Positions 1,169-36,274 of a DNA stretch of 37,602 bases are shown in pieces (position 1 is the first letter of the stretch; each line of letters begins with the position of its first letter). The stretch covers positions 1-37,602 of the forward strand of contig JAJQAN010000047.1 of assembly GCA_021203765.1 (NCBI GenBank). Direction: 5' to 3'. The stretch comes from Coriobacteriaceae bacterium. Its GTDB lineage: Bacteria; Actinomycetota; Coriobacteriia; Coriobacteriales; QAMH01. The notes beneath the pieces were generated by a model. It made no database searches. It was not told where the DNA came from and saw nothing but the letters and a program-made list of their open reading frames with translations. Position numbers and translations under genes: made by a program.

Positions 1169-2191
1169 TTAGGCGGTCAGCACCTCGACGTTGCCGTCTT
1201 TGCAGGCGAACACATTGCTCACGCTGAAGTCGACCGCATCTCCGGCCGTCAGGTCGCAGGATGTGTCATGCAAAAAGCTGATCAGCTCCTGATCCCCGTA
1301 ACGTAGCTTGAGTTGGATCGAGTTGCCGCGGAAGGAGACATCGGTCACCTCGCCGCTGAAGACGGGATCGTTCGGGTGCGCCGGCTCGCTGCCCACATAG
1401 ACCGCTTCGGGTCGCACGAGCACCTCGTCGGTTCCCTGCGGCACGGAAAAAGCCTTCAGCAGATCGGCGTTTTCGACCGAGATGTTCTCACCGATGAACT
1501 TGGCGACGAACGGGGTCTCGGGGTGCAGGTAGATCTCCTGCGGTGTGCCGACCTGGTCGACGTGTCCCGAGTTCGTGACGATGATCTCGTCGGCGACCTC
1601 GATCGCCTCGTCTTGGTCATGGGTGACGAAGATGGAGGTGATGCCGACGCGGGCGATCATGTCCTTGAGCCAGCCGCGCAGCTCGGCACGCACCTTGGCA
1701 TCGATGGCGGCGAACGGCTCGTCGAGCAGCAGGATCTTCGGATCGGAGGCTAAGGCGCGGGCGAAGGCGACACGCTGGCGCTGCCCACCGGAAAGCTGGT
1801 TGGGGTAACGCTTCTCGGTGCCGCTCAGGCCGACCAGTTCGATCATGTCCATGACTGTTTTCTTGATCTCCGCCTTCGGGCGCTTCTTCACCTTCAGGCC
1901 GAAGGCGACATTGTCGTAGACCGTCATATAGCGGAACAGGGCGTAGTTTTGGAAGACGAAGCCGATGTTGCGCTTTCCGGCGGGGACGCCGTCGACGCAT
2001 TCCCCGTCGATGTAGATGCTGCCTTCGTCCTGGGTCTCCAGTCCGGCGAGCACCCGCAGGATGGTGGTTTTGCCGCTGCCGCTCGGACCGAGCAGGGCGG
2101 TGAGTTTGCCCTCCTGGATGCCGACCGAGACGTCTTCGATGGCGGCGAACAGGCCGAAACGCTTGGTGATGTTTTCCAGTTCTATATACAT
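1169..2191 (-). CDS. cysA: sulfate/thiosulfate ABC transporter ATP-binding protein
   Basis: Walker A GPSGSGKTT, signature LSGGQRQRVAFARAL, Walker B ILLLDEPFAAID; adjacent to two permeases and a sulfate-binding protein. Confidence 0.93.
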   Translation of the reverse strand: MYIELENITKRFGLFAAIEDVSVGIQEGKLTALLGPSGSGKTTILRVLAGLETQDEGSIYIDGECVDGVPAGKRNIGFVFQNYALFRYMTVYDNVAFGLKVKKRPKAEIKKTVMDMIELVGLSGTEKRYPNQLSGGQRQRVAFARALASDPKILLLDEPFAAIDAKVRAELRGWLKDMIARVGITSIFVTHDQDEAIEVADEIIVTNSGHVDQVGTPQEIYLHPETPFVAKFIGENISVENADLLKAFSVPQGTDEVLVRPEAVYVGSEPAHPNDPVFSGEVTDVSFRGNSIQLKLRYGDQELISFLHDTSCDLTAGDAVDFSVSNVFACKDGNVEVLTA

Positions 2192-2198
2192 GGTCCCG

Positions 2199-3233
2199 TT
2201 ACTCCTTCGCAGTCGTGGCGCTTGCCGTTGCCGGTGTGCTCGTCGGAGGAGGCGAATCCTCGGCTGCCACCGTCTGAGGCTCCTGGCGCTCCTTCTTCCG
2301 CCTGCCCCGCCGCTTTTTCGTTATCTCCGCGTTCTGGTCGTTTTCCGTCTCCTTGCCGCCCCGGTATTCCACGTAGGAGCGGATGAAGAGGATGATGATA
2401 GCAAAGACGACCAGCAATGAGGAGACGGCGAAGGCTGCCGAATACTGATACTCGTTATAGAGAGTTTCGATATAGAGCGGCATGGTCAGGGTGATGCCGC
2501 GCAGGTTCCCGGAGACGACCGAGACGGCGCCGAATTCACCGAGTGCACGAGCCGCGCACAGGACGATGCCGTAGAGCAGGGCCCACTTGATGTGGGGGAG
2601 GGTGACCCGGCGGAAGATGGTGAAGAACTTCGCACCCATCAAGGCGGCAGCCTCTTCCTCGTCGGTGCCCTGACCGAGCATGACGGGGATGAGTTCGCGG
2701 CTCACGAAGGGGAAGGTCACAAAGACGGTGACGAGTATGATGGCTGGCACGGCGAAGATGATCTGGATGCCGAGCGCCTGCTCCACCCCGTAGATCGGGC
2801 TGGTACGCCCGTAGGTCAGGATGTAGATGAGGCCGACGATGACGGGGGAGACGGACATCGGCAGGTCGATGAGGGTCATCAGAACCCGTCGCCCGTGGAA
2901 CTTGAACTTGGTGATGCACCAGGCGGCGAACAGGCCGAAGATCGTGTTGAGGAGCACGGATACGAGGCCGGCGAGAAGCGTCAGCCGGATGGCGTCGAGC
3001 GCGTACGGCTCGGTGATGGCGGCGGTGAAGGCGGAGATGCCCTGTCCGAAAGCCTGCACCAACACGTAGATGAGCGGCAGGACGAGCAGGAGCGCCACAT
3101 AGACGATGCCGAGGACGATCAGGACGACCTTGATGGGGTCACGCTGCTTCTTGCGCTTGGCCTTGGCGATGTCCTCGCTGCTGGTGATCTCCACTTCGGG
3201 GTTTGTCTTGCGTATATCTTGGGCTGCTGACAT
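2199..3233 (-). CDS. cysW: sulfate ABC transporter permease with basic/Pro-rich C-terminal extension
   Basis: Binding-protein-dependent permease; EEAAALMGAKFFTIFRRVTLPHIKWALLYG loop; 'LGEFGAVSVVSGNLRG' typical of CysW. Confidence 0.9.
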   Translation of the reverse strand: MSAAQDIRKTNPEVEITSSEDIAKAKRKKQRDPIKVVLIVLGIVYVALLLVLPLIYVLVQAFGQGISAFTAAITEPYALDAIRLTLLAGLVSVLLNTIFGLFAAWCITKFKFHGRRVLMTLIDLPMSVSPVIVGLIYILTYGRTSPIYGVEQALGIQIIFAVPAIILVTVFVTFPFVSRELIPVMLGQGTDEEEAAALMGAKFFTIFRRVTLPHIKWALLYGIVLCAARALGEFGAVSVVSGNLRGITLTMPLYIETLYNEYQYSAAFAVSSLLVVFAIIILFIRSYVEYRGGKETENDQNAEITKKRRGRRKKERQEPQTVAAEDSPPPTSTPATASATTAKE

Positions 3234-3239
3234 GGCCGA

Positions 3240-4106
3240 TCACCCCTGTGTCTTTCTGGATGCGCGCGTCTGCACGGCGTTCATCGCAAAGAGCACGACG
3301 AAGGAAACGATAAGCAGGACCAGTGCAAGCGCGGTCGCTTCGGCGTAGTCGTATTCCTGCAGCTGCGACATGATGAGCAGGGGAGTGATCTCCGTTTGGA
3401 AGGGCGTGTTGCCTGCGATGAAGATGACACTGCCGTATTCGCCGAGGCAGCGGGCGAACGACAGGCCGGCGCCTGCGAGCAGGGCCGGACGTATTTCGGG
3501 GAGGAGCAGGGAGAAGAAGGTGCGGATACGGCCCGCGCCGAGCATCTCCGATGCCTCTTCGGTCTGATAGTCGATCTTTTCGAGCACCGGCTGCACCGAG
3601 CGGACGACGAAGGGGAAGCCGACGAAGGTCAACGCGATGATGATGCCGATGCGGGTGTAGGCGATGTCGATGCCCCAGTTGGCGAATATCGAGCCGACCC
3701 AGCCGGTGTCGACGGTCAGGGCCGTCAGAGACAGACCTGCGATGGCCGTCGGCAGTGCGAACGGCAGCTCGATGAGGCCGTCGAGGATGCGCTTCCCGGG
3801 AAACGAGTAGCGCACGAGCACCCAGGCGAGGACCGTTCCCATCACGGCGTTGATAAGCGTTGCGATCAAGGCACAGCTGAGGGATACCGCATAGCTTGCC
3901 AGGGCACGTGACGAGGTGATGGTTTTGATGAAGTCCTCGAAGGTGAGGTTGAGGGTGCTCCATATCAGGAATCCGAGTGGGATGAGCACGATGATGCAGA
4001 GCAGCGTCACGGTGATGCCGAATGATATACCGAAGCCGGGGATGACCCGGTTTGCCCGCGCGTGCGAACGCGTGCTCGCCTTCTGATTACTCATTGATGC
4101 CCCCAT
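3240..4106 (-). CDS. cysT: sulfate ABC transporter permease
   Basis: CysT/CysU-like: 'LPFALPTAIAGLSLTAL', 'CLGEYGSVIFIAGNTPFQTEITPLLI'. ATG at 4094 is an alternative start preceded by GGGGG. Confidence 0.9.
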   Translation of the reverse strand: MGASMSNQKASTRSHARANRVIPGFGISFGITVTLLCIIVLIPLGFLIWSTLNLTFEDFIKTITSSRALASYAVSLSCALIATLINAVMGTVLAWVLVRYSFPGKRILDGLIELPFALPTAIAGLSLTALTVDTGWVGSIFANWGIDIAYTRIGIIIALTFVGFPFVVRSVQPVLEKIDYQTEEASEMLGAGRIRTFFSLLLPEIRPALLAGAGLSFARCLGEYGSVIFIAGNTPFQTEITPLLIMSQLQEYDYAEATALALVLLIVSFVVLFAMNAVQTRASRKTQG

Positions 4107-4115
4107 ATATCATCG

Positions 4116-4150
4116 AAAAGGCGTGCCGATCTGAAATCGACACGCCTTTA
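4116..4150 (-). promoter_or_regulatory. intra-operon hairpin between sbp and cysT (possible attenuator or processing/stability element)
   Basis: Minus-strand read: AAAGGCGTG-T-CGAT-ttcag-ATCG-G-CACGCCTTTT; a 14 bp stem if the T/G pair is counted as U-G wobble; sits just upstream of cysT. Confidence 0.7.
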
Positions 4151-4234
4151 CATGTACGGAACGCACCGACGATATCGGCACGCCCCGCCTTACCTACGTA
4201 CAAAAACTGCGGTCTTGCCTAAACGGCCCTGCTG

Positions 4235-5311
4235 TTAGCTGAGGTCGCCTTCGTAGATCTGGTCGAACTGGCCACCGTCGTCGAAGTAGTACTCCTGCGC
4301 TTCCTTCCAGCCACCGAAGTCGTCGATGGTGACGAGCTTGATGCTCAGATCGAAGGTGTCGGAGAACTTCTGGAGGATCTCCTCGTTGGAAGGACGGTAG
4401 TAATACTCGCCGCCGAGTTCCTGTCCCTCATCGGAGTAGAGGTAGTTGATGTACTCCTCGGCTACCGAACGGGTGCCGCGCTTGTCGACGACCTCGTCGA
4501 CGACGGCCGCTGAGGGCAGGCATTTGATCGAAACGCTCGGGATGACGATGTCGTACTCGTCCGGGTACTCGTCACAGGACTGGAAGGCCTCGTTCTCCCA
4601 CGCGACGAGGACGTCGCCCTGGCCGTTTTCGACGAACGTGGTTGTGGAACCGCGTGCGCCGGAGTCGAGTGCGACGACGTTGGCGAACATGTCATGCAAA
4701 AACTGCAGGCATTGATCCTCGTCGTTGTTGTATTGTTCCTGGGCCCAGGCCAGTGCTGCCAGATAGTTCCAGCGGGCACCTCCGGAGGTCTTGGGATTCG
4801 GTGTTACGACGCCGACGCCCTCGTTTGCCAGGTCTCCCCAGTCTTGGATGTTCTTGGGATTGCCCTTGCGGACCAAAAAGACGATCGTGGAGGTGTACGG
4901 GGAGGAACTGTTCGGGAACTTGTCGATCCAGCCCTCCTTGATGACGCCGGCGTCCACGATCGAGTTGACGTCTGCCTCGAGCGCGAGCGTGACGACGTCT
5001 GCCTCGAGTCCCTGTGCGACCGCAAGCGCTTGGGAGCCCGATCCGCCGTGGGACTGCGTGACCGAGACATCCTGTCCCGACTGTTCCTTCCAGTGGGGGA
5101 TGAAGATCTCGTTGTAGGCTTCGTAGAGTTCGCGGGTCGGATCGTAGGAGACGTTCGTGATTTCGGAGCTTTCGGTCATGCTGGCGTCGCCGCCGGCGGC
5201 CTCCTCCTCAGTCGTCTCATCCTCTCCGCAGCCGCTCATTCCGAGCATCGCCCCTGCTGAGAGGGCCGCGCCCATGCCGACTACCTGTCTGCGAGAAAAA
5301 GACTTGCTCAT
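4235..5311 (-). CDS. sbp: sulfate-binding lipoprotein (periplasmic binding protein)
   Basis: ORF 4235..5437; ATG at 5311 preceded by gaaagaaggt; N-terminus MSKSFSRRQVVGMGAALSAGAMLGMSGCG with lipobox-like Cys; body matches sulfate-binding proteins ('VVTPNPKTSGGARWNYLAALAWA'). Confidence 0.92.
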   Translation of the reverse strand: MSKSFSRRQVVGMGAALSAGAMLGMSGCGEDETTEEEAAGGDASMTESSEITNVSYDPTRELYEAYNEIFIPHWKEQSGQDVSVTQSHGGSGSQALAVAQGLEADVVTLALEADVNSIVDAGVIKEGWIDKFPNSSSPYTSTIVFLVRKGNPKNIQDWGDLANEGVGVVTPNPKTSGGARWNYLAALAWAQEQYNNDEDQCLQFLHDMFANVVALDSGARGSTTTFVENGQGDVLVAWENEAFQSCDEYPDEYDIVIPSVSIKCLPSAAVVDEVVDKRGTRSVAEEYINYLYSDEGQELGGEYYYRPSNEEILQKFSDTFDLSIKLVTIDDFGGWKEAQEYYFDDGGQFDQIYEGDLS

Positions 5312-5436
5312 GACATACCTTCTTTCATCGGTGTTGCCGTCCTGCCCCGGACGGATTCGCCAGATGGCGGGGACAGCCCGTCCGAAGTGCTGTGGGTATT
5401 CTAGAAAAGGGTATGCACGAATGCGAGCATTTTTCA

Positions 5437-5450
5437 TGAAAACGATTGCA
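5437..5450. promoter_or_regulatory. LacI-type operator, proximal to sbp
   Basis: tgaaaacgattgca, one core change from tgaaaacgtttaca; abuts a minus-strand -10-like TATTAT (5455..5450). Confidence 0.6.
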
Positions 5451-5635: not shown

Positions 5636-6706
5636 ATGTCGATGAAGGAGATCGCAGATCGGGTCGGCGTGTCGGTGGCGACGGTCTCGCGCGTGCTGAA
5701 CGACCCCGATCACCGCTGTGCGTACCGGGACGAGATCCTGCAGGTGGCGCAGGATCTGAACTATGCGCCCAACGCCGCCGCCCGCAATCTCAAGTTGGGT
5801 GTGCGCGACGAGGAGGACACGAAGTTCCTCGCGATACTGATGACCCGGGCCGATGCCGCCGGCGTCGATCCGTTCTTCACCGAGCTCATCCGGTGCGTCG
5901 AATCCGAGATACACCGGACGGCGTGCATCCTCACGAAGGTGGTCTACCGCTCGATCTTTTCCGACGACCGCACCTGCGATGCCTCCGACGTGCAGGCTTT
6001 GGTCGACGAGGTCACCTCCGCCGACGGCCACAAGCCGGACGGCATCATCATCGTCGGAAAATGCGCTCCGCTGGCGCTCGAACAGCTCTCCCAGCACATC
6101 GCCGGCATCGTCTCCATCAACCGTAACTCGGCCAACTACCTGGTCGACGAGGTACACTGCGACGGGCGCAGAATTGCGGAGCTTGCCTGCGAGTACCTGA
6201 TCGGTCTCGGGCACACGCAGATCGGATATGTCGGGGCAGTCCATTCGGAGACACGCTACGAGGGTTTTGAGACGACGATCAGAGCCCATGGCTTGCAGAT
6301 CGATGAGGATAACGTCTGCGAGGTGGGGCTTTCGGAGGCGGAAGGCTTCGAGGCGATGGAGAAGATCAAATCATCTCCGAATCCGCCCACCGGCATCTAC
6401 TGTGCAAACGACATCATCGCGGTCGGACTGCTGAAGTATCTCTGGCAGCATCGCAACCAGGGTTACAATCCGTCCGTCATCGCAAGTGATGACATAGAGG
6501 AAAGTCAGAACACCAAACCGATGCTGACGACCGTACATCTCCCTCGTGAGGAGATGGCGCGCTTTGCGCTGCGTCTGCTCGTCGACCGCATCGACGGCGG
6601 ACATCAGTCGGTGGTCAAGCTGCAGGTGGAAGGCTCGCTCATGGAACGTTGCTCGTGTGCCGCCCCGGAGGAGACGGGGGAGCGGCTGCATGTAACACGT
6701 CCATAA
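5636..6706 (+). CDS. LacI-family transcriptional regulator
   Basis: N-terminal HTH MKEIADRVGVSVATVSRVLNDPDHR..YRDEILQVAQDLNYAPNAAARNLK and periplasmic-binding-like domain; preceded by gaggag. Confidence 0.95.
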   Translation: MSMKEIADRVGVSVATVSRVLNDPDHRCAYRDEILQVAQDLNYAPNAAARNLKLGVRDEEDTKFLAILMTRADAAGVDPFFTELIRCVESEIHRTACILTKVVYRSIFSDDRTCDASDVQALVDEVTSADGHKPDGIIIVGKCAPLALEQLSQHIAGIVSINRNSANYLVDEVHCDGRRIAELACEYLIGLGHTQIGYVGAVHSETRYEGFETTIRAHGLQIDEDNVCEVGLSEAEGFEAMEKIKSSPNPPTGIYCANDIIAVGLLKYLWQHRNQGYNPSVIASDDIEESQNTKPMLTTVHLPREEMARFALRLLVDRIDGGHQSVVKLQVEGSLMERCSCAAPEETGERLHVTRP

Positions 6707-7980: not shown

Positions 7981-8283
7981 GTGACGCTCATCATCACGGC
8001 GGCGGCTGCCGTCGTCGCGACCGTTGTTTGGTTCGTTTTACTGCCAAACAACAAGTTCCGCATCGGGGTGCTGGCCCTCATCTACTGGGCCGCATCCCTG
8101 ATGTGGTGTGTCGACGGTTTTGCCAATCTGTTTGCCGGCGAGCCGTTCATCGAGCTGCACGATTCAGCTGTCATGTCCGACGATGCCCTCCTCGGAGGGA
8201 TCGTCGTCCTTATCGGCCTGATTGTCTGGGTGGTCTACCTGATCGTCCGTGGTCTCAGGCACACAAGTCCGAAAACTCCATAA
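7981..8283 (+). CDS. hypothetical small membrane protein (second of a pair)
   Basis: GTG start immediately after the upstream stop; about three hydrophobic segments; 3' end overlaps the convergent thioesterase gene. Confidence 0.75.
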   Translation: MTLIITAAAAVVATVVWFVLLPNNKFRIGVLALIYWAASLMWCVDGFANLFAGEPFIELHDSAVMSDDALLGGIVVLIGLIVWVVYLIVRGLRHTSPKTP

Positions 8284-8974
8284 CGGTATACGGCTTACCC
8301 TCGGTATTGACGAGCTGTACGATCGCCAGATCCTCCTGTGAGGTATCGACGAGCGGGATGATCTCGTCTCCTTGACGGGCGGGGTTGCGGTACTCGACCC
8401 GCAGTCTGTGCGCATGCATCGTCTCGGGGACGAGATCGCAAGCCATGCGGATGTAGTTGGCGTTGTTGACGTGACGGTTGAAGTCGATGTCGGAGGGCTG
8501 GGCGATCAGGTGCCCGCATTCGCGCAGAGCTTCCTTCGAGGGCGCGATCTTGTTCGTGGGACAGTCCACTTCGACTTCCGGATCGAAGGTCACGGTCGCG
8601 ACGACGTCTTCATCGAGACGTATGGGACTGCCGGTGTCCATGCTGACGAAGGCCCCGACCGCACGGCTTGCGGCGCAGAGCTCGCCCTGCTCGTCACGGA
8701 TGGTCGTGTTGCGGTAACCGAGCTTGCTTTTGAAGTCGAAGATCCGTGTGGTGATCTCGAGGTTCTCGCCGTATGTCGGGAAGCGCATCACCTGCAGCTG
8801 ACGGGAGATGACCATCATGACTGCGTTGTTTTCGGCAAGGTAGTTTTCGAACGCGGGTTCCGATTCCATCCACATCTGTGAGCAATCCTGCATCATGCGC
8901 ACGACGGATGCGAGTGTGAGCACACCGTCTTCCCCCGTGTTGCTGATGGCGACTCTGACGGGCAGTGTGTACAT
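8255..8974 (-). CDS. acyl-ACP thioesterase
   Basis: Double hot-dog fold sequence with DIDFNRHVNNANYIRMA and 'GYRNTTIRDEQGELCAASRAVGAFVSMDT'. Confidence 0.88.
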   Translation of the reverse strand: MYTLPVRVAISNTGEDGVLTLASVVRMMQDCSQMWMESEPAFENYLAENNAVMMVISRQLQVMRFPTYGENLEITTRIFDFKSKLGYRNTTIRDEQGELCAASRAVGAFVSMDTGSPIRLDEDVVATVTFDPEVEVDCPTNKIAPSKEALRECGHLIAQPSDIDFNRHVNNANYIRMACDLVPETMHAHRLRVEYRNPARQGDEIIPLVDTSQEDLAIVQLVNTEGKPYTVMEFSDLCA

Positions 8975-9182: not shown

Positions 9183-10169
9183 GTGCCTTGCCCTGATTTC
9201 ATATGTATGGGATTTCAAAAGTGCGGGACGACGACGCTCTTCGAGATTCTGAACGAACACCCCCAAATCGCCCTCTGTCGCGATGTCAAGGAACCGATGT
9301 ACTACCGCGTTCCGGCCGCGACCATCTTCGGCGGTGGCAAGCGCTTTTACGATTGGCGCTATTTTTCCCACATCCCGGAAGATGACACGCGCCTGAAAGG
9401 CGAGGTGAACGCCGGCCTGACGATGTCGGGTTGTGCGAAGAAGGTCAGCCGTTACCACGACCCGAGCACGAAGATGATCTTCATGATGCGCAATCCCGTC
9501 GACCGTAGTTACTCCGCATACCGCTACTTCCTCGCCCGAGGGTTCTTCTCCGCTTCGGACATCCGCTCCGATCAAGAACACGGCCATGCCCAGGCCTTCG
9601 ATGCCTATGTGCATCGGATCATCGACGATCCGCACCGACGCTCGCAGGTGATGAAGAAACGGCTCTATTATCTCGTCTTGTCGCAGAGCAACTACAACAC
9701 CTGCATACGCGAATATCTGGATACCTTCGATCTTCAGAACATGAAGTTCATCATCTTCGAGGAATTCATCGAAGATCAGGCGGCGGTCTGTAAGGGCCTC
9801 TTCGATTTCCTCGGTGTCGACAACCCACCAGGTCTCGTAACGGGGCTCCGTGCCAATGAGGGAAGCGAGCGGTCGGTCTCGCCACTCGGATCCGAGTGGC
9901 TGATGATCACCAAGGGGGCTCGCTACTTCTTCCATGATTTTTGCTGCATGACACATTGGGCGCCGGGGCTCTATGACCGTTACAACCGCTACTACCATCA
10001 CGTGCGTGAACGCAACCTGGCGCCGGATACCGACACGAGCAGGGTTCTGCCGCAGACACGTGCGTATCTCATGGACTACTTCGCCGACGAGATCGACGGC
10101 GTCTCGGAGCTCTGCGGAAGGGACCTGCGGACCGTCTGGGATCCATCCGGTCTCCAAGCTTCTGCATAG
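9183..10169 (+). CDS. PAPS-dependent sulfotransferase family protein
   Basis: 5'-phosphosulfate loop CMGFQKCGTTTLFEILNEHP at the N-terminus; 3'-phosphate motif MMRNPVDRSYSAYRYFLARG; GTG start after agaggtg. Confidence 0.88.
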   Translation: MPCPDFICMGFQKCGTTTLFEILNEHPQIALCRDVKEPMYYRVPAATIFGGGKRFYDWRYFSHIPEDDTRLKGEVNAGLTMSGCAKKVSRYHDPSTKMIFMMRNPVDRSYSAYRYFLARGFFSASDIRSDQEHGHAQAFDAYVHRIIDDPHRRSQVMKKRLYYLVLSQSNYNTCIREYLDTFDLQNMKFIIFEEFIEDQAAVCKGLFDFLGVDNPPGLVTGLRANEGSERSVSPLGSEWLMITKGARYFFHDFCCMTHWAPGLYDRYNRYYHHVRERNLAPDTDTSRVLPQTRAYLMDYFADEIDGVSELCGRDLRTVWDPSGLQASA

Positions 10170-10332
10170 CGCCGCGGTGCCTCCGACAGGGCGCTGCCGC
10201 AAAGAACCCTCACCGAAAAAAGATCGACCTGGCGCATAAAAAAACCTTGCCTCGGGGGCGGAGCCGTCTGCTTTCTATATAGTGGAGGCATCGAAGTTGG
10301 GAGTTCATTCAGGTGGGTAAGGAGTGGTGTCG

Positions 10333-12027
10333 GTGAAGTCTGATCTCGAAATCGCGCGTGAGGCGAAAATCGTCCCGATCAAGGAGGTCGCCGCCAAGGC
10401 GGGGGTCCTCGAAGACGAACTCGAACTGTACGGCAACTACAAGGCCAAGGTCTCGCTCGACATCCTCGAGCGTCTCAAGGACCGTCCCGACGGCAAGCTC
10501 ATCGATGTGACGGCCATTACGCCGACCCCGCTCGGCGAAGGCAAGACGGTCGCCACCGTCGGGCTCGGCCAGGCCTTCGGCAAGCTCGGCGTGAGTTCGG
10601 TCACCTGCATACGCCAGCCGTCCTTGGGCCCGGTCTTCGGCATCAAGGGCGGAGCTGCCGGTGGCGGATACTCGCAGGTCATCCCGATGGAGGACTTCAA
10701 CCTCCATCTGACGGGGGATTTCCATGCCGTCTCGGCCGCGCACAATCTGTGCTCGGCCTTCCTGGACAATCACATCTTCAAAGGCAACGAGCTCGGAATC
10801 GACCCCGACAGCGTCACCTGGCGCCGGTCGGTCGATGTCTCCGACCGATCCCTGCGCGAAGCCGAAGTCGGCCTGGGAGGGGAGAAGAACGGCATCCCGC
10901 ATCACACCGGCTGGGATATCACCTCGGCATCGGAGCTAATGGCGATCCTCGCCTTGGCCGAGGACCTGCCCGACCTACGCCGGCGCATCGGGGGCATCGT
11001 GGTCGCAAGCACCTACGACGGCAAACCCGTCACCGCCGAGGACATCCACGTCGCCGGGTCCATGACGGTGCTCCTCAAGGATGCCATCCGGCCGACGCTG
11101 CTTCAAAACCTCGAAAACGAGGCGGTCCTGGTACACGCCGGGCCGTTTGCGAACATCGCGCACGGCAACTCCTCGATCATCGCAGACCGCATCGCCTTGA
11201 AGATGGGCGACTACGTCATCACGGAGAGCGGCTTCGGTGCCGACCTCGGCTGCGAGAAGTTCGTCGACATCAAATGCCGCTACAGCGGCATGAAGCCCGA
11301 CTGCATCGTCATCGTGGCGACCGTCCGGGCCTTGAAGGCCCACAGCGGCAAGTACAAGGTCGTCGCCGGAGAGGATCTGCCCGAAGGACTGGTCAACGAG
11401 GATCTTGAGGCACTTTCAGAAGGCATCTGCAACCTGACCCGGCACGTTGAGAACTGCCGCAAGTTCGGTGTGCCGGTCGTCGTGGTCGCCAACGCATTTC
11501 CGACCGACACCGATGCGGAGCATCAGATGATCTGTGAGGCGGCCCTTGCAGCAGGTGCGAGTGAAGCCGTCGTCCATCACCTCCACGCCCAAGGTGCCGA
11601 AGGAGGTATCGACCTGGCAGAAGCCGTTATGCGGGCCTGCGACGAGCCGGCCGAGTTCAAGATGCTCTACCCTGACGACATGAGCGTCACCGACAAGATC
11701 GAACGCATCGCTACCGAAATCTACCGCGCCGACGGGGTCGACTTCAGCGAGCAGGCACGCGCCTCCATCCAAAAGTTCACCGATTGGGGCTACGGTGACC
11801 TGCCGGTCTGCATCGCCAAGACGCAGTATTCGATCAGCGACGATCCCAGCCTGCTCGGAGCCCCTGACGGTTGGCGTCTCAAGGTGAGCGACGTGCGTCT
11901 GTCGGCCGGCGCCGGCTTCCTCTACGCGCTCTGTGGCAACATGATGACGATGCCGGGGCTGCCGAAGGTCCCGGCCGGCAATGCCATCGACATAGACGAG
12001 GACGGAAACATCGTCGGCCTGTTCTGA
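10333..12027 (+). CDS. fhs: formate-tetrahydrofolate ligase
   Basis: ITPTPLGEGKTVATVGLGQAFGKLG, RQPSLGPVFGIKGGAAGGGYSQVIPMEDFNLHLTGDFHA; GTG at 10333 is 8 nt from aaggag (ORF track start 10324). Confidence 0.97.
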   Translation: MKSDLEIAREAKIVPIKEVAAKAGVLEDELELYGNYKAKVSLDILERLKDRPDGKLIDVTAITPTPLGEGKTVATVGLGQAFGKLGVSSVTCIRQPSLGPVFGIKGGAAGGGYSQVIPMEDFNLHLTGDFHAVSAAHNLCSAFLDNHIFKGNELGIDPDSVTWRRSVDVSDRSLREAEVGLGGEKNGIPHHTGWDITSASELMAILALAEDLPDLRRRIGGIVVASTYDGKPVTAEDIHVAGSMTVLLKDAIRPTLLQNLENEAVLVHAGPFANIAHGNSSIIADRIALKMGDYVITESGFGADLGCEKFVDIKCRYSGMKPDCIVIVATVRALKAHSGKYKVVAGEDLPEGLVNEDLEALSEGICNLTRHVENCRKFGVPVVVVANAFPTDTDAEHQMICEAALAAGASEAVVHHLHAQGAEGGIDLAEAVMRACDEPAEFKMLYPDDMSVTDKIERIATEIYRADGVDFSEQARASIQKFTDWGYGDLPVCIAKTQYSISDDPSLLGAPDGWRLKVSDVRLSAGAGFLYALCGNMMTMPGLPKVPAGNAIDIDEDGNIVGLF

Positions 12028-12057: not shown

Positions 12058-12924
12058 ATGGAAGAATCCGACGAGACGCTGATCATCGACGGTGCCGCGA
12101 CGGCCGAAAAGGTGCGCGGCGAGGCATCGGAGATGCTTAAGGCTGCACGGGAAAACGGTGTCGAGGCAGGCCTGGCGGTGATACTCGTCGGAGAGGATCC
12201 CGCTTCCCAGACCTACGTCCGCCTGAAGACCAAAGACGCCGCGGAATGCGGCATCCGCACCTTCGACCATCGTCTGCCGGTACAGACCACGCAAGCACAG
12301 CTCGAGGCTCTCATCGACGAGTGCAACGCCGATCCGGACGTTCACGGCATCCTCGTGCAGCTTCCGATTCCCGACCAGCTCGACCCGGAAGCTGCCATCG
12401 CCCGTATCTCGCCCGAAAAGGATGTCGACGGTTTCTCACCGGACAGTCTCGGCCGTCTGGTGCGTGGCCTGGACGGTATGCGGAGCTGTACCCCGGCCGG
12501 CATCATGCGCCTTCTGGAGGAATACGACATCGACGTGTCGGGGCAGCATGTCGTCATCGTCGGGCGCTCAACGATCGTCGGAAAACCGCTTGCCCTGCTC
12601 ATGCTCAACGCCGATGCGACCGTCACCGTCTGCCACAGCAAGACGTCCGGTCTGGCGGACATCTGCCGCGAGGCCGACATACTCGTCGCAGCGGTCGGCC
12701 GTCCCTGCTTCATCACAGGCGACATGGTCCGCGAGGGCGCCGTCGTCATCGACGTCGGCATCAACCGTACGGAACGGGGAACGTTCGGAGATGTCGATTT
12801 CGATAGCGTCGCGCCGCGGTGCAGCGCCATAACGCCCGTCCCCGGCGGCGTCGGGCCGATGACGCGTGCGATGCTCATGCTCAACACCGCACATGCGGCC
12901 TCGGCCGTCTCCGCACAGCTATGA
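12058..12924 (+). CDS. folD: bifunctional methylenetetrahydrofolate dehydrogenase/cyclohydrolase
   Basis: VILVGEDPASQTYVRLKTKDAAECGI, HGILVQLPIPDQLD, PEKDVDGFSPDSLGRL, VIVGRSTIVGKPLALLML. Confidence 0.97.
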   Translation: MEESDETLIIDGAATAEKVRGEASEMLKAARENGVEAGLAVILVGEDPASQTYVRLKTKDAAECGIRTFDHRLPVQTTQAQLEALIDECNADPDVHGILVQLPIPDQLDPEAAIARISPEKDVDGFSPDSLGRLVRGLDGMRSCTPAGIMRLLEEYDIDVSGQHVVIVGRSTIVGKPLALLMLNADATVTVCHSKTSGLADICREADILVAAVGRPCFITGDMVREGAVVIDVGINRTERGTFGDVDFDSVAPRCSAITPVPGGVGPMTRAMLMLNTAHAASAVSAQL

Positions 12925-31794: not shown

Positions 31795-33429
31795 ATGCTC
31801 GACGAACTCCATGTCCGCGGCATCGCCTTGATAGATGAGGCAGGTCTCGAGTTCTCTCCTTCCATGACGGTCCTGACCGGCGAGACGGGGGCCGGCAAGA
31901 CTGCGCTGCTCGAGGCCCTCGGCCTCGTTTCCGGTGCACGGGCAACGGCAAAGGCCGTCCGCGACGATGCCGAGGAGGCCGAGGTACAGGCTCGGATCAT
32001 CTCCGCCGACGATGAGGAACACGTGCTCTGTCGTCGTCTGACGGCCCAGGGGCGTTCACGCTGCACCGTCGACGGTCAGATGGTTTCCGTCGGCGAGTTG
32101 GCCGCATTCACCGAAGATATCCGCATCCATGGTCAGCACGAGCAGGTCGCCTTGCTCCAGCCTGCCGTCCAGCTCGATTATCTCGACGCCTGGATCCAGC
32201 CTGATTACGGCCATCTGGAGGCATACCGGAGTGCACGGGAAGACTATCTCGCCTTGGCCGAGCGCCTGCAGAGGATGGAGGACGACTCCGCCGCCGCTGC
32301 CCGCGACCTCGAGTTCCTCAGATTTTCCGCAAGCGAGATCGACAAGGTCGATCCCCAGGAAGGTGAATACGAACAACTGCAGGCCGACCTTCCCCGGCTC
32401 CAGCATGCCGAGGAACTGACCTCGGCTTTGGAAACGGCCCTTTCCGACCTCGGTGACGACGATGCCGCCGCCGACCTTGTCTCACAGGCCGTCCTCTCCC
32501 TCCAGCGTCTCGAGGGCATCGACCCCGCGCTCGACGAACTGTGCGCACGCCTCTCCTCCCTGGAGACCGATCTGGCGGATTTCAACCGCGACCTGCGTGC
32601 ATATCGCGAGACGGTCGAATTTGACACGGATGCTTTGAGCAGGACGTTGACCCGCCTCGACGAGCTCTCGGGGCTCATGAAGCGCTTCGGTCCTTCGATG
32701 GAGCAGGTCTTCGAGCTGCGCGAACGGGCACGTCGGGTCCTCGAGGAAGCAGACGGTTCCGGCGAGGAGCTCTCGCAGGTTCGCGAAGAGGTCGAGTTGG
32801 CAAAGGAGAAGCTGCAGCAGGCAGGGGAGTCCTTGACGAAGGTCCGCCAGGAGGCGGGGGAGCGCTTCTGCTCCGAGTTGGCATCCTCGTTGGCCGATCT
32901 GGCGATGGAAGGCGCATCCTTCGAGTTTTCCTTCGAGGAGCTGCCGTTCGAACGCTGGACCGCCGACGGTCCGAACCGTGTGGAGCTGTTCTACCGGCCG
33001 GCACCGACGGCAAAGCTGCGTCCGCTTTCGCACATCGCCTCAGGCGGGGAGCTTTCCCGCATCCTGCTCGCGCTCGAATGCATGCACCTCTCCACGAGCA
33101 CCGACGCACAGAGCGAGACCCTGGTCTTCGACGAGGTCGACCAAGGAATCGGCGGCGCGACGGGGACGGCGGTCGCCGCCCGCCTCTCAGAGTTGGCAAA
33201 GGCGGCCCAGGTCATCGTCGTCACGCATCTTCCACAGGTCGCCGCTGCGGCCGACCGCCACTACGTCGTCATCAAGGAAGGAAGCGACGACTCGCTTCCC
33301 ATCACGGACGTCCACCGCGTCGAAGGCGAGGAGCGGGTCCATGAGATCGCCCGCATGCTCGCCGGTGACATCAACGACACGTCGTTGACGCATGCCCGCA
33401 ACCTGCTCACCGCCTCCGATGAGGCCTGA
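31795..33429 (+). CDS. recN: DNA repair protein RecN
   Basis: TGETGAGKTALLEALGLVSGARA, IHGQHEQVALLQPAVQLDYLD, SHIASGGELSRILLALE, VFDEVDQGIGGATGTAVAARLSELAKAAQVIVVTHLPQVAA. Confidence 0.95.
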   Translation: MLDELHVRGIALIDEAGLEFSPSMTVLTGETGAGKTALLEALGLVSGARATAKAVRDDAEEAEVQARIISADDEEHVLCRRLTAQGRSRCTVDGQMVSVGELAAFTEDIRIHGQHEQVALLQPAVQLDYLDAWIQPDYGHLEAYRSAREDYLALAERLQRMEDDSAAAARDLEFLRFSASEIDKVDPQEGEYEQLQADLPRLQHAEELTSALETALSDLGDDDAAADLVSQAVLSLQRLEGIDPALDELCARLSSLETDLADFNRDLRAYRETVEFDTDALSRTLTRLDELSGLMKRFGPSMEQVFELRERARRVLEEADGSGEELSQVREEVELAKEKLQQAGESLTKVRQEAGERFCSELASSLADLAMEGASFEFSFEELPFERWTADGPNRVELFYRPAPTAKLRPLSHIASGGELSRILLALECMHLSTSTDAQSETLVFDEVDQGIGGATGTAVAARLSELAKAAQVIVVTHLPQVAAAADRHYVVIKEGSDDSLPITDVHRVEGEERVHEIARMLAGDINDTSLTHARNLLTASDEA

Positions 33430-34115
33430 TGAGCGAATCTTCCGCATACGATGACGTCCTTCGAGCCCTTGCGGACGGGGACTGTGCCCTCGTCGGTACC
33501 GACACCGTCGTCGGCCTGGCCGCCAAGCCGGCCTCCGAGGGTGAGCGAGCCATCTTCCGCCTCAAGCAGCGTCCCGCATCCCAGCGCCTGCCCTGGCTGA
33601 TTTCCGACGCATCCTTGCTCAACGTGTTTGCCGACGATCCACACGGGTGGGGGAAGCGGCTTTCCTGCATGCTTTGGCCCGGCGCTCTGACGCTCGTGCT
33701 GCCCGCCACCGATGAAGCCCGCATGTTGGCCGCAGATTCGCGACAGACCGTGGCGCTGCGTGTACCGGATGACGAGACCTGCCGCAGGCTGCTCTCCGAT
33801 CTCGAGACGCCGCTTGCCACCACGAGTGCCAACCTGCATGGTCTTGCGCCGGCCACCTGTCTGGCGGATCTGCCCGAAAACATGCGCTCGCTTCCCGGTG
33901 CATCCCTGCTTGTCGATTCATCCGCCCGTCCCTCTCTGCCCTCGGCCATCGTCGACTGCTGCGGTCCCCAACCGCGCGTCTTGCGGGAGGGGGCGATTCC
34001 CGAGCAGCTGATCCTTACCGTCGCCGTCTATGGTGATACACTGGGTGCCCATCCGAGCGGAGACGAACCGCCACGCCGACCACGAGGGGATACGGGGATG
34101 ACATCATGCGCATAG
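33429..34115 (+). CDS. L-threonylcarbamoyladenylate synthase (Sua5/YrdC/TsaC-like)
   Basis: VGTDTVVGLAAKPASEGERAIFRLKQRPASQRLPWLI, WPGALTLVLPAT, 'VALRVPDDE', PLATTSANLHG. Confidence 0.87.
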   Translation: MSESSAYDDVLRALADGDCALVGTDTVVGLAAKPASEGERAIFRLKQRPASQRLPWLISDASLLNVFADDPHGWGKRLSCMLWPGALTLVLPATDEARMLAADSRQTVALRVPDDETCRRLLSDLETPLATTSANLHGLAPATCLADLPENMRSLPGASLLVDSSARPSLPSAIVDCCGPQPRVLREGAIPEQLILTVAVYGDTLGAHPSGDEPPRRPRGDTGMTSCA

Positions 34116-34540
34116 CTATCGCGAGCGATCACGGTGGATTCGAAACCAAGCAAAAGCTCCTTCTCGTCCTCGACGAGCTCGGCTGCACCTACCATGATTT
34201 CGGCTGCGACAGCGAAGAGAGCGTCGACTATCCCGACTATGCCGTTCTGGTCGCCGAAGCCGTCGTCGCCGACGAAGCGGATTTCGGCGTGCTGGTCTGC
34301 GGTACCGGCATCGGCATGGCGATCGCCGCAAACAAGGTTCACGGCATCCGTGCGGCGAATGTGACCAGCCCGGACTTCGCCCGCCTCGCACGTCAACACA
34401 ACAACGCGAACGTCCTGACCTTGTCGGGGCGTTTCGTCGATTTCGACACCAACCGACAGATCCTAGAGGTCTTTCTCAAGACGGAGTTCGAGGGAGGACG
34501 ACACAAACGGCGTGTCGACAAGATCCGTTCGCTCGAGTGA
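34106..34540 (+). CDS. rpiB: ribose 5-phosphate isomerase B
   Basis: IAIASDHGGFETKQKLL, GVLVCGTGIGMAIAANKVHGIRAANV, 'HNNANVLTLSGRFV'. Confidence 0.96.
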   Translation: MRIAIASDHGGFETKQKLLLVLDELGCTYHDFGCDSEESVDYPDYAVLVAEAVVADEADFGVLVCGTGIGMAIAANKVHGIRAANVTSPDFARLARQHNNANVLTLSGRFVDFDTNRQILEVFLKTEFEGGRHKRRVDKIRSLE

Positions 34541-34555
34541 TAAAGAGGGGGCATC

Positions 34556-35794
34556 ATGAAATTCGAATATCTGTCCGTCACCGATCCGGAGATGCATACC
34601 CTGCTCGCCGACGAGCTCGGCCAGCAGCGCGCGACCTTGGATCTGGTCCCCTCTGAGAACTATCCCTCTCCGTCCGTCCTCGACGCCCTGGGCTCACCGA
34701 TCGCCCTTTCTCAGGCGGAAGGGTGCATCGGTACACGTAACTGCAGCGGCACTGCAATCCTCGACAAGGTCGAGCAACTGGCGTGCGAACGTCTGCAGGC
34801 CCTCTTCGACACCCCCTACGTCAACGTACAGCCCCATTCGGAGGAGCAGGCCCTCTTCACCGCCTGCAACATCCTGCTGACCGATACATCTCAAAACGCC
34901 TTCATCTGTCTGTCTTCGTACTTTGAAGATGTCGCTTCCGATGAGACCGCTCAGATGCCCCCGTACGTCTTCGATGCGGGAGCGTTCACGATCGACTACG
35001 ACGCCTTCGAGCGCTACGTGCTCCTACGTCGTCCGCAGCTTATAGCCGTCAGCGCCTCAACGTACTTCCGTGCCATCGATTTCGAGCGCGTCGCCGACAT
35101 CGCCCACAAGGTGGATGCCGCCCTGCTTGCCGATCTTTCGACGATCAGCGGCTTGGTGGCCGCCGGCGTCTATCCATCCCCGCTCCCGTACGCCGACATC
35201 GTCATCGGTGCGACGCACGCGACCATGCGCGGACCGCGCGGCGCGTTCACGCTGTTCAAGGATTCAGACTTGCAGGCCACCTTCGACCAGGTGCTTTCCC
35301 CTGCCGTCCAGGGCTCCGTGCTCATGAACGCCGTCGCGGCAAAGGCGGTCGCCTTCGCCGAGGCTGACACCCCTGGTTTTCAAACGGCGGGTTCGAAGAG
35401 CATCGAGGCCGCCAACGTCATCGCGCAGGGTGCCGCCGAGGGTGGCTGCACGGTCTTTGCCGACGGCAAGACCGATACGCATCTATGTGCCATCGGTCTC
35501 GATGACGTCGATCTTGCACCACAGGCGGTCCTCGATCTGCTCGAGAGCGTCGGAATCAGCGCGTCGGTGAGCAACCTTCCTGTCGGAGGGGATCTCAAAC
35601 CGGTCCCGCACCTGCTGCTTTCGGCCGCCCCGCTGGTCACGCGTGGACTGGACACCTATGAGGCGCGTTTCGTCGGCGAGCTGCTCGCACGTCTGCTTTC
35701 CGCCCCCACAGACGAAGAGACCGTGGGGGACGTCCGCACGAAGATCGAAGGGATGCTCAAGGACCATCCGCTGTATCCCGGCTTGGAGGAATGA
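34556..35794 (+). CDS. serine hydroxymethyltransferase-like protein lacking the PLP lysine (probable pseudoenzyme)
   Basis: SHMT framework retained (PSENYPSPSVLDALGS, VNVQPHSEEQA, ISGLVAAGVYPSPLPYADIVIGATHATMRGPRGAFTLFK, VQGSVLMNAVAAKAVAFAEA) but THK->THA and other active-site changes. Confidence 0.9.
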   Translation: MKFEYLSVTDPEMHTLLADELGQQRATLDLVPSENYPSPSVLDALGSPIALSQAEGCIGTRNCSGTAILDKVEQLACERLQALFDTPYVNVQPHSEEQALFTACNILLTDTSQNAFICLSSYFEDVASDETAQMPPYVFDAGAFTIDYDAFERYVLLRRPQLIAVSASTYFRAIDFERVADIAHKVDAALLADLSTISGLVAAGVYPSPLPYADIVIGATHATMRGPRGAFTLFKDSDLQATFDQVLSPAVQGSVLMNAVAAKAVAFAEADTPGFQTAGSKSIEAANVIAQGAAEGGCTVFADGKTDTHLCAIGLDDVDLAPQAVLDLLESVGISASVSNLPVGGDLKPVPHLLLSAAPLVTRGLDTYEARFVGELLARLLSAPTDEETVGDVRTKIEGMLKDHPLYPGLEE

Positions 35795-35797
35795 GAG

Positions 35798-36274
35798 ATG
35801 GACGACGAACGCCCGACCTGGGACGAATACTTCATGGACCTGGCGGAGCACGTCGCCTCACGTTCGACCTGCTTGCGCCGTAAGGTCGGTGCGGTTTTGG
35901 TACGCGACAAGCGTATCGTCGCCACCGGCTACAACGGCGGCCCGACCGGCCTGGCCCACTGCCTGGAGGTCGGCTGTCTCCGCGAACAACTCAACATCCC
36001 GTCCGGCCAGCAGCATGAACTCTGCCGTGGCACCCATGCGGAGCAGAACGCCATCATCCAGGCTGCACGCTACGGACTGCCGATGGACGGCGCGGTCCTG
36101 TACTGCACGACCCAACCCTGCGTGCAATGCACCAAGATGCTCATCAACGCCGGCGTTTCCGAGATCGTCTTCGCGGAGGGCTACCCCGACGGACTTGCGA
36201 AGGATCTGCTCGACGAATCGGGCATCATCGTGCGCCGCTTTCCCCCGGTCGACCCCGCCTCAGAAGAGGCGTGA
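35798..36274 (+). CDS. dCMP deaminase (ComEB-like)
   Basis: [65 protein letters not shown]. Confidence 0.93.

Follow-up and report, generated by a model that had tools for sequence, protein, structure and literature searches.

An SHMT-derived pseudoenzyme gene, probably a displaced resident glyA, in the glyA slot of a Coriobacteriaceae genome

The 37,602-nt stretch of Coriobacteriaceae DNA analyzed here, which we refer to throughout as the window, contains an intact open reading frame (34556..35794, + strand; 412 aa, no frameshift) that we annotate, based on the ORF itself, Pfam matches, synteny, alignment, and a structural model, as an SHMT-derived pseudoenzyme gene and probably the displaced resident glyA of its lineage. 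The surrounding genes are tightly spaced on the same strand: A tsaC-like gene (33429..34115, +; assigned from the ORF list and synteny) overlaps by 10 bases an rpiB-like gene (34106..34540, +), which borders the conserved glyA slot on its left and is separated from the window gene by a 15-base gap, and a dCMP deaminase gene (35798..36274, +) follows after only 3 bases and forms the right side of the slot. A possible ribosome-binding site, suggested by the sequence (AAGAGGGGG; 34543..34551, +), ends 4 bases before the ATG. We found no promoter-like sites around the window gene, a result that is uninformative either way; the gene is closely linked to, and probably cotranscribed with, that of the dCMP deaminase, an enzyme that supplies dUMP to thymidylate synthesis, one of the main processes consuming SHMT-derived methylene-THF. 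Additional, nonadjacent one-carbon context is provided by two genes that we take, from recognition of their sequences, to be fhs (formate–THF ligase; 10324..12027, +) and folD (12058..12924, +). The gene neighborhood outlined in an initial sequence-only reading of this DNA is real.

Elsewhere in the window we note an ABC transporter with an SBP_bac_11-type solute-binding protein, possibly sulfate-related (1169-5437), a LacI-type regulator (5636-6706), an acyl-ACP thioesterase-like protein with N- and C-terminal thioesterase domains (8255-8974, − strand; PF01643 and PF20791), and a sulfotransferase-domain protein (9183-10169; PF00685, 54.5 bits), as well as a 324-aa ORF (86-1060) without a Pfam match, in which a hydrophobic, signal-like segment lies close to the start.

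The same reading had described an intact, SHMT-derived ORF of 412 aa, and both the translation and the profile search agree: The window protein matches the Pfam SHMT family PF00464 over its whole length (220 bits across residues 7–375, with a cut-off of 27). With canonical SHMT it has in common the fold, the length, the PSENY, NVQPHS, and RGPRG motifs, and the SHMT core, and its best solved-structure homologues are bacterial SHMTs. Its score with the NCBIfam SHMT subfamily model NF000586 (267.7 bits) falls under the cut-off of 335, and it is 32%–41% identical to canonical SHMTs, with the divergence distributed over the whole protein. Chance or sequencing error as the source of the changes is ruled out by this protein-wide divergence and by the absence of a frameshift. 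Phage proteins match it at no more than about 34%, and these matches carry no annotation.

In an alignment of the window protein and 67 canonical SHMTs, drawn almost entirely from its own order and phylum, every substitution listed in the sequence-only reading is present. The PLP Schiff-base lysine, which is K in 67 of the 67 canonical sequences, is replaced by Ala222 (codon GCG, 35219..35221, +), such that the site reads acg cac GCG acc atg (T-H-A-T-M, as opposed to T-H-K-T). In residues 53–65 (34712..34750, +), a region that in canonical SHMT extends into the active site of the partner subunit, Tyr53 has become Gln and YYGG has become NCSG, eliminating both active-site tyrosines (YY to NC), while Glu55, Gly56, and Arg61 are kept. 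The folate/PLP flap (residues 120–128; 34913..34939, +) is rebuilt from GGHLTHGS to SSYFEDVAS with a 4-residue deletion, as seen in both the alignment and the structural model. In residues 193–199 (DLSTISG; 35132..35152, +), the change from DMAHIAGL to DLSTISGL keeps the Asp and turns the His into Thr196. Finally, across residues 337–356 (35564..35623, +) the folate-loop NKN becomes SVS, with loss of the folate Asn to Ser, and the substrate-carboxylate Arg becomes Leu354. The PLP-stacking His is indeed lost as originally proposed, but it had been located in the wrong motif: The stacking residue is the His of the HGGHLTHG flap, which aligns with Tyr122, and the DMAH His is a separate active-site contact.

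To place these losses against the background of overall divergence, we considered the 120 alignment columns that are at least 95% identical, of which the window protein retains 66, together with 21 textbook PLP, substrate, and folate contacts of the E. coli and Geobacillus structures, whose residue numbering we follow. The window protein keeps 8 of the 21 (Ser33, Glu55, Ser95, Ser168, Asp193, His221, Arg228, and Gly253) and has lost 13, whereas the full 21/21 are present in the intact GlyA encoded elsewhere in the genome (see below) and in the GlyAs of the same-family g5 genomes. Retention in the active site (8/21) compared with other conserved columns (59/100) indicates a weakly enriched loss (Fisher p = 0.09); because this is modestly above the loss at other conserved positions, the pattern by itself does not distinguish a role with a protein partner from a new ligand. 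Taken together, the substitutions strongly support the conclusions that the window protein is unable to make the PLP internal aldimine at the canonical position, and that it has lost most of the residues that bind substrate and folate.

Could the protein nonetheless still be a PLP enzyme, or even an SHMT, by way of a migrated lysine or noncovalently held PLP? Asp193, His221, and Ser95 are kept, and K226M and K226Q mutants of the B. stearothermophilus SHMT are represented in the PDB with serine or glycine (1yjy, 1yjs). However, no lysine that could obviously stand in lies between residues 186 and 234, the losses extend to the stacking and DMAH histidines, the substrate Arg, both tyrosines, and the folate Asn, and the presence of a canonical GlyA in the genome makes the window protein unnecessary as an SHMT. 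We regard continued PLP chemistry as extremely improbable, and it is very unlikely that the degenerate SHMT in the usual glyA position functions as an SHMT.

The predicted structure is consistent with a protein that has kept its architecture. An AlphaFold model of the window protein has a pLDDT of 87.6 and a pTM of 0.89, with 53 SHMT rows in an input alignment made up mostly of canonical SHMTs, meaning that the fold is partly assumed. The least confident parts are the flap (residues 124–131, the lowest) and the folate loop near residues 341–350. Foldseek searches with the model return best PDB matches that are all SHMTs, at a TM score of about 0.9. The modeling thus strongly supports an SHMT fold that has been kept and catalytic loops that have not.

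The sequence-only reading had called for a search for a second, intact glyA, and such a copy is present in the same genome (1.20 Mb in 62 contigs; 90.3% complete, 0.07% contamination). On contig C33 (G000:C33:13838-15094), immediately upstream of glnA, lies a canonical glyA whose 418-aa product carries THKTLRGPRGG and matches PF00464 with 520.9 bits; the window protein is about 37% identical to it. The possibility of a genome lacking an active-looking GlyA is rejected on this basis, and with it goes the earlier suggestion that, if no other glyA existed, C1 units might come from formate. Our search of the genome for a glycine cleavage P protein came up empty, so the C33 GlyA is probably the main link between serine, glycine, and C1 units besides Fhs. 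The CAI of this gene, at 0.80, is the highest among the genes compared.

The origin of the C33 copy appears to differ from that of its contig. ObgE, encoded on C33, is 74%–75% identical to its counterparts in same-family genomes and at most 68% elsewhere, over full-length matches, and GlnA shows 71%–80% compared with at most 63%; since both proteins are closest to those of same-family genomes, C33 is a native contig. The C33 GlyA, in contrast, is 76% identical to that of another family (f2) and 61% to that of the same-family g5 genomes. In the tree it falls inside f2 (support 96/94), within a clade of f2 and f10 (98/99), and the AU test rejects a tree that unites it with f1 (the g5 sequences; p = 6e-5). 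The simplest reading of these relationships is that the C33 glyA is a xenolog, probably transferred into the lineage of the window genome.

An obvious concern with any such pair of genes is that one copy entered through assembly or binning from a different organism. The assembly is a draft in 62 contigs, and only 62 bases lie between the start of the intact glyA and the contig end upstream of it. Arguing against an artifact are the low contamination estimate, the same-family character of both the rest of C33 and the neighbors of the window gene (the window's dCMP deaminase is 78%–83% identical to those of same-family g3 and g5 genomes), and the codon usage of both glyA copies, which fits; we consider the chance of an artifact very small.

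Comparison of the slot across the family suggests which of the two copies is the resident. Three genomes of the family (G004, G005, and G006) share the order tlyA-nadK-recN-tsaC-rpiB-glyA-dCMP deaminase-atpB, with a canonical, THK-bearing glyA in the slot. No glyA lies upstream of glnA in G005 and G004 (L096, L097), nor in the smaller L098 and L099 as far as they extend. The window genome has the reverse arrangement, with the degenerate gene in the slot and a glyA beside glnA. Two other genomes, from two sister genera, have empty slots: In G002, the dCMP deaminase gene begins about 70 bases after rpiB, and no SHMT was found anywhere in that genome (83% complete), and in G001 the rpiB–dCMP deaminase gap is 136 bases, with a GlyA of yet another clade encoded elsewhere. 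Within the family, the slot glyA appears to have been lost or displaced on more than one occasion, and the window's genome is the one known case in which the old slot gene persists beside a new glyA. Phylogeny is less help for the window protein, whose branch is so extremely long (about 2.3 substitutions/site, 2.28 under LG+G4, and at least 10 under a mixture model) that the protein is unplaceable in the tree, and the AU test narrowly rejects grouping it with the f1 resident glyA clade (p = 0.04); the identity of the resident therefore rests on synteny and position. The earlier proposal of a degenerate paralog holding the glyA position is accordingly confirmed with respect to the slot, with the refinement that the degenerate copy is probably the resident and the intact copy the newcomer.

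Two side observations concern glyA in the wider order. Three genomes from three families (L037 in G001, L055 in G009, and L056 in G013) have GlyAs that form a clade of their own (THKTLRGPRGA) and cluster with outgroup members of the phylum and not with the rest of the order, an apparent further glyA transfer. In addition, near-complete genomes of family f5 (G010, G032, G036, G040, G048, G052, G060, and others) give no SHMT match with the window protein as query, and G010 gives none with a canonical GlyA query either, pointing to repeated glyA loss and a possible dependence on glycine or serine.

A resident gene freed of its task might simply be decaying: Under this alternative, the gene has drifted since the second glyA came, with its reading frame open by luck or kept for the translation or transcription of the dCMP deaminase. 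Several observations are in line with decay, including the restriction of the gene to one genome, the absence of a resident gene from two sister genera (where it must be dispensable), the very long branch, and the tight gene spacing, which makes a polar effect plausible. The coding sequence itself argues otherwise. In neutral simulations carried from an intact gene to 38% protein identity, 0 of 300 runs remained stop-free (mean of 7 stops), and the first stop appeared at a median identity of 94% and at the lowest at 63%, well before the divergence of the window gene. Its codon usage is unchanged (GC3 0.76 and CAI 0.69, within the range of neighboring genes). Furthermore, the protein is hydrophobic at 91% of 118 SHMT columns that are nearly always hydrophobic, far above the maxima of 73%–75% reached in neutral runs in which only stops were forbidden. 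These comparisons strongly support the view that selection acted on the window protein over most of its divergence, and they make a decaying remnant improbable. The simulations show this selection over most of the divergence taken as one, with no orthologue available by which to date it relative to the loss of the lysine.

Our searches for an orthologue covered several scales. None was found among the seven family genomes, in which the genus is represented by the window genome alone, nor in 399 genomes of the order at E ≤ 1e-84 (where canonical GlyAs form a background at E of about 1e-82); a 300-genome search was likewise negative. When 85,488 species were scanned with a peptide pattern, an approach sensitive to close relatives only, the sole hit was a canonical Rhizobium SHMT. 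A DNA pattern for an SHMT site with a non-lysine codon, which misses residues with A-starting codons and sites that also lack RGPRG, matched 53 places in 399 phylum genomes, approximately the control rate, and among the 20 that we inspected, the one in the window alone lies in an SHMT gene. Conservation of the THA motif had been raised as a check, with THK in close relatives as the observation that would speak against a pseudoenzyme. Within our searches the motif is private to this genome and relatives do have THK; at the same time, a branch of this length is not the product of one recent point mutation. With regard to the usual marks of a pseudoenzyme, lost catalytic residues and, by sequence, a canonical homologue in the same genome are both found here, and conservation in related species is not. 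We found no bacterial SHMT pseudoenzyme in the literature, in which subscription papers were only partly covered.

Considering all of these lines of evidence, we hold with considerable confidence that the window gene is a displaced, selected pseudoenzyme. The most likely origin of this bacterial SHMT pseudoenzyme, known from a single genome, is xenologous displacement. The following sequence of events would account for it: The lineage's own glyA stays in its ancestral slot; a second glyA, originating in a different family within the order, is acquired next to glnA, freeing the resident from its enzymatic job; and the resident copy turns into a pseudoenzyme rather than being deleted. We infer that its product may be an SHMT-fold subunit that lacks PLP and operates via protein contacts, either as a homodimer or paired with GlyA, and that it could modulate or scaffold one-carbon enzymes of serine and thymidylate metabolism. 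On balance we lean toward this overall explanation, that of a displaced resident glyA that is now a noncatalytic SHMT-fold subunit, and hold more tentatively the component in which the subunit acts via specific protein partners. Substitution of the residues that would be lent to a partner site (Tyr53, Tyr63, and Gly254) speaks against a heterodimer with GlyA in which both sites work; an inhibitory or purely structural role would fit better than a catalytic heterodimer.

Alternatively, the emptied SHMT pocket may have been neofunctionalized to bind another ligand (an amino acid, phosphate, or nucleotide) or to perform PLP-free catalysis, making the protein a sensor or new enzyme instead of a GlyA partner. 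The persistence of the eight contact-list residues named above, some of them at the cofactor site, and a flap and folate loop that are rebuilt and not merely mutated are compatible with such a change; however, the persisting residues are no commoner than conserved residues elsewhere, we identified no substrate or new motif, and there are no orthologues to reveal newly conserved residues. We therefore view neofunctionalization as conceivable but rather unlikely. A regulatory, scaffold, or ligand-binding role for the window protein, as the sequence-only reading had suggested, is possible.

The closest precedent, in our comparison, is the Plasmodium falciparum SHMTm (PF14_0534), an apparently inactive protein that lacks 16 of the 21 active-site residues considered there, shares 18% identity with the active SHMTc, and was proposed by its authors to form a heteromer with it (PMC3014972). 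Like SHMTm, the window protein is an SHMT paralogue that occurs beside an active-looking SHMT and has lost most active-site residues (13/21 here, on a different list). Unlike SHMTm, which is eukaryotic and organelle-targeted, it is bacterial, occupies the ancestral glyA operon slot, and is about 37% identical to a copy that was probably acquired by transfer. Relative to canonical bacterial SHMT (GlyA, PF00464), it is distinguished by the absence of the PLP lysine, stacking His, substrate Arg, and folate Asn and by its rebuilt flap. In other PLP-enzyme families, the hLCB1 (LCB1/SPTLC1) subunit of serine palmitoyltransferase is a Lys-less member of a heterodimer (PMC3794620); LCB1 resembles the window protein in being a PLP-enzyme homologue retained as a protein without the PLP lysine, but it is an established heterodimer subunit. 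The TSB-like pseudoenzyme of eudicots, which activates TSA (PMC12727527), is similar as a type, that is, as a noncatalytic paralogue of a PLP enzyme, in that case kept for a protein–protein role; it likewise belongs to a different family, and its function has been shown biochemically. Mammalian SHMT1, for its part, is a scaffold in dTMP synthesis (PMC4260740). The boldest version of our preferred explanation is speculative: Replacement of a core metabolic enzyme by horizontal transfer would have split its catalytic function from a concealed structural or regulatory one, with the foreign GlyA performing the reaction and the resident retained alongside dCMP deaminase, in one operon, as a PLP-free subunit that regulates or scaffolds one-carbon and thymidylate metabolism, making it a bacterial counterpart of SHMTm.

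Duplication is the origin usually given for pseudoenzymes, whereas here an origin by displacement is most likely: A transferred gene would have taken over the reaction, the old copy would have disappeared from sister genera, and a single lineage would have retained it as a PLP-free SHMT. If the window protein is functional, SHMT in bacteria would have a selectable, catalysis-independent role of the kind so far raised for Plasmodium SHMTm and mammalian SHMTs. We note in passing that the genome also carries two long-type glnA genes (about 700 aa; G000:C13:1542-3635 and G000:C33:11578-13665), which are 51% identical to each other.
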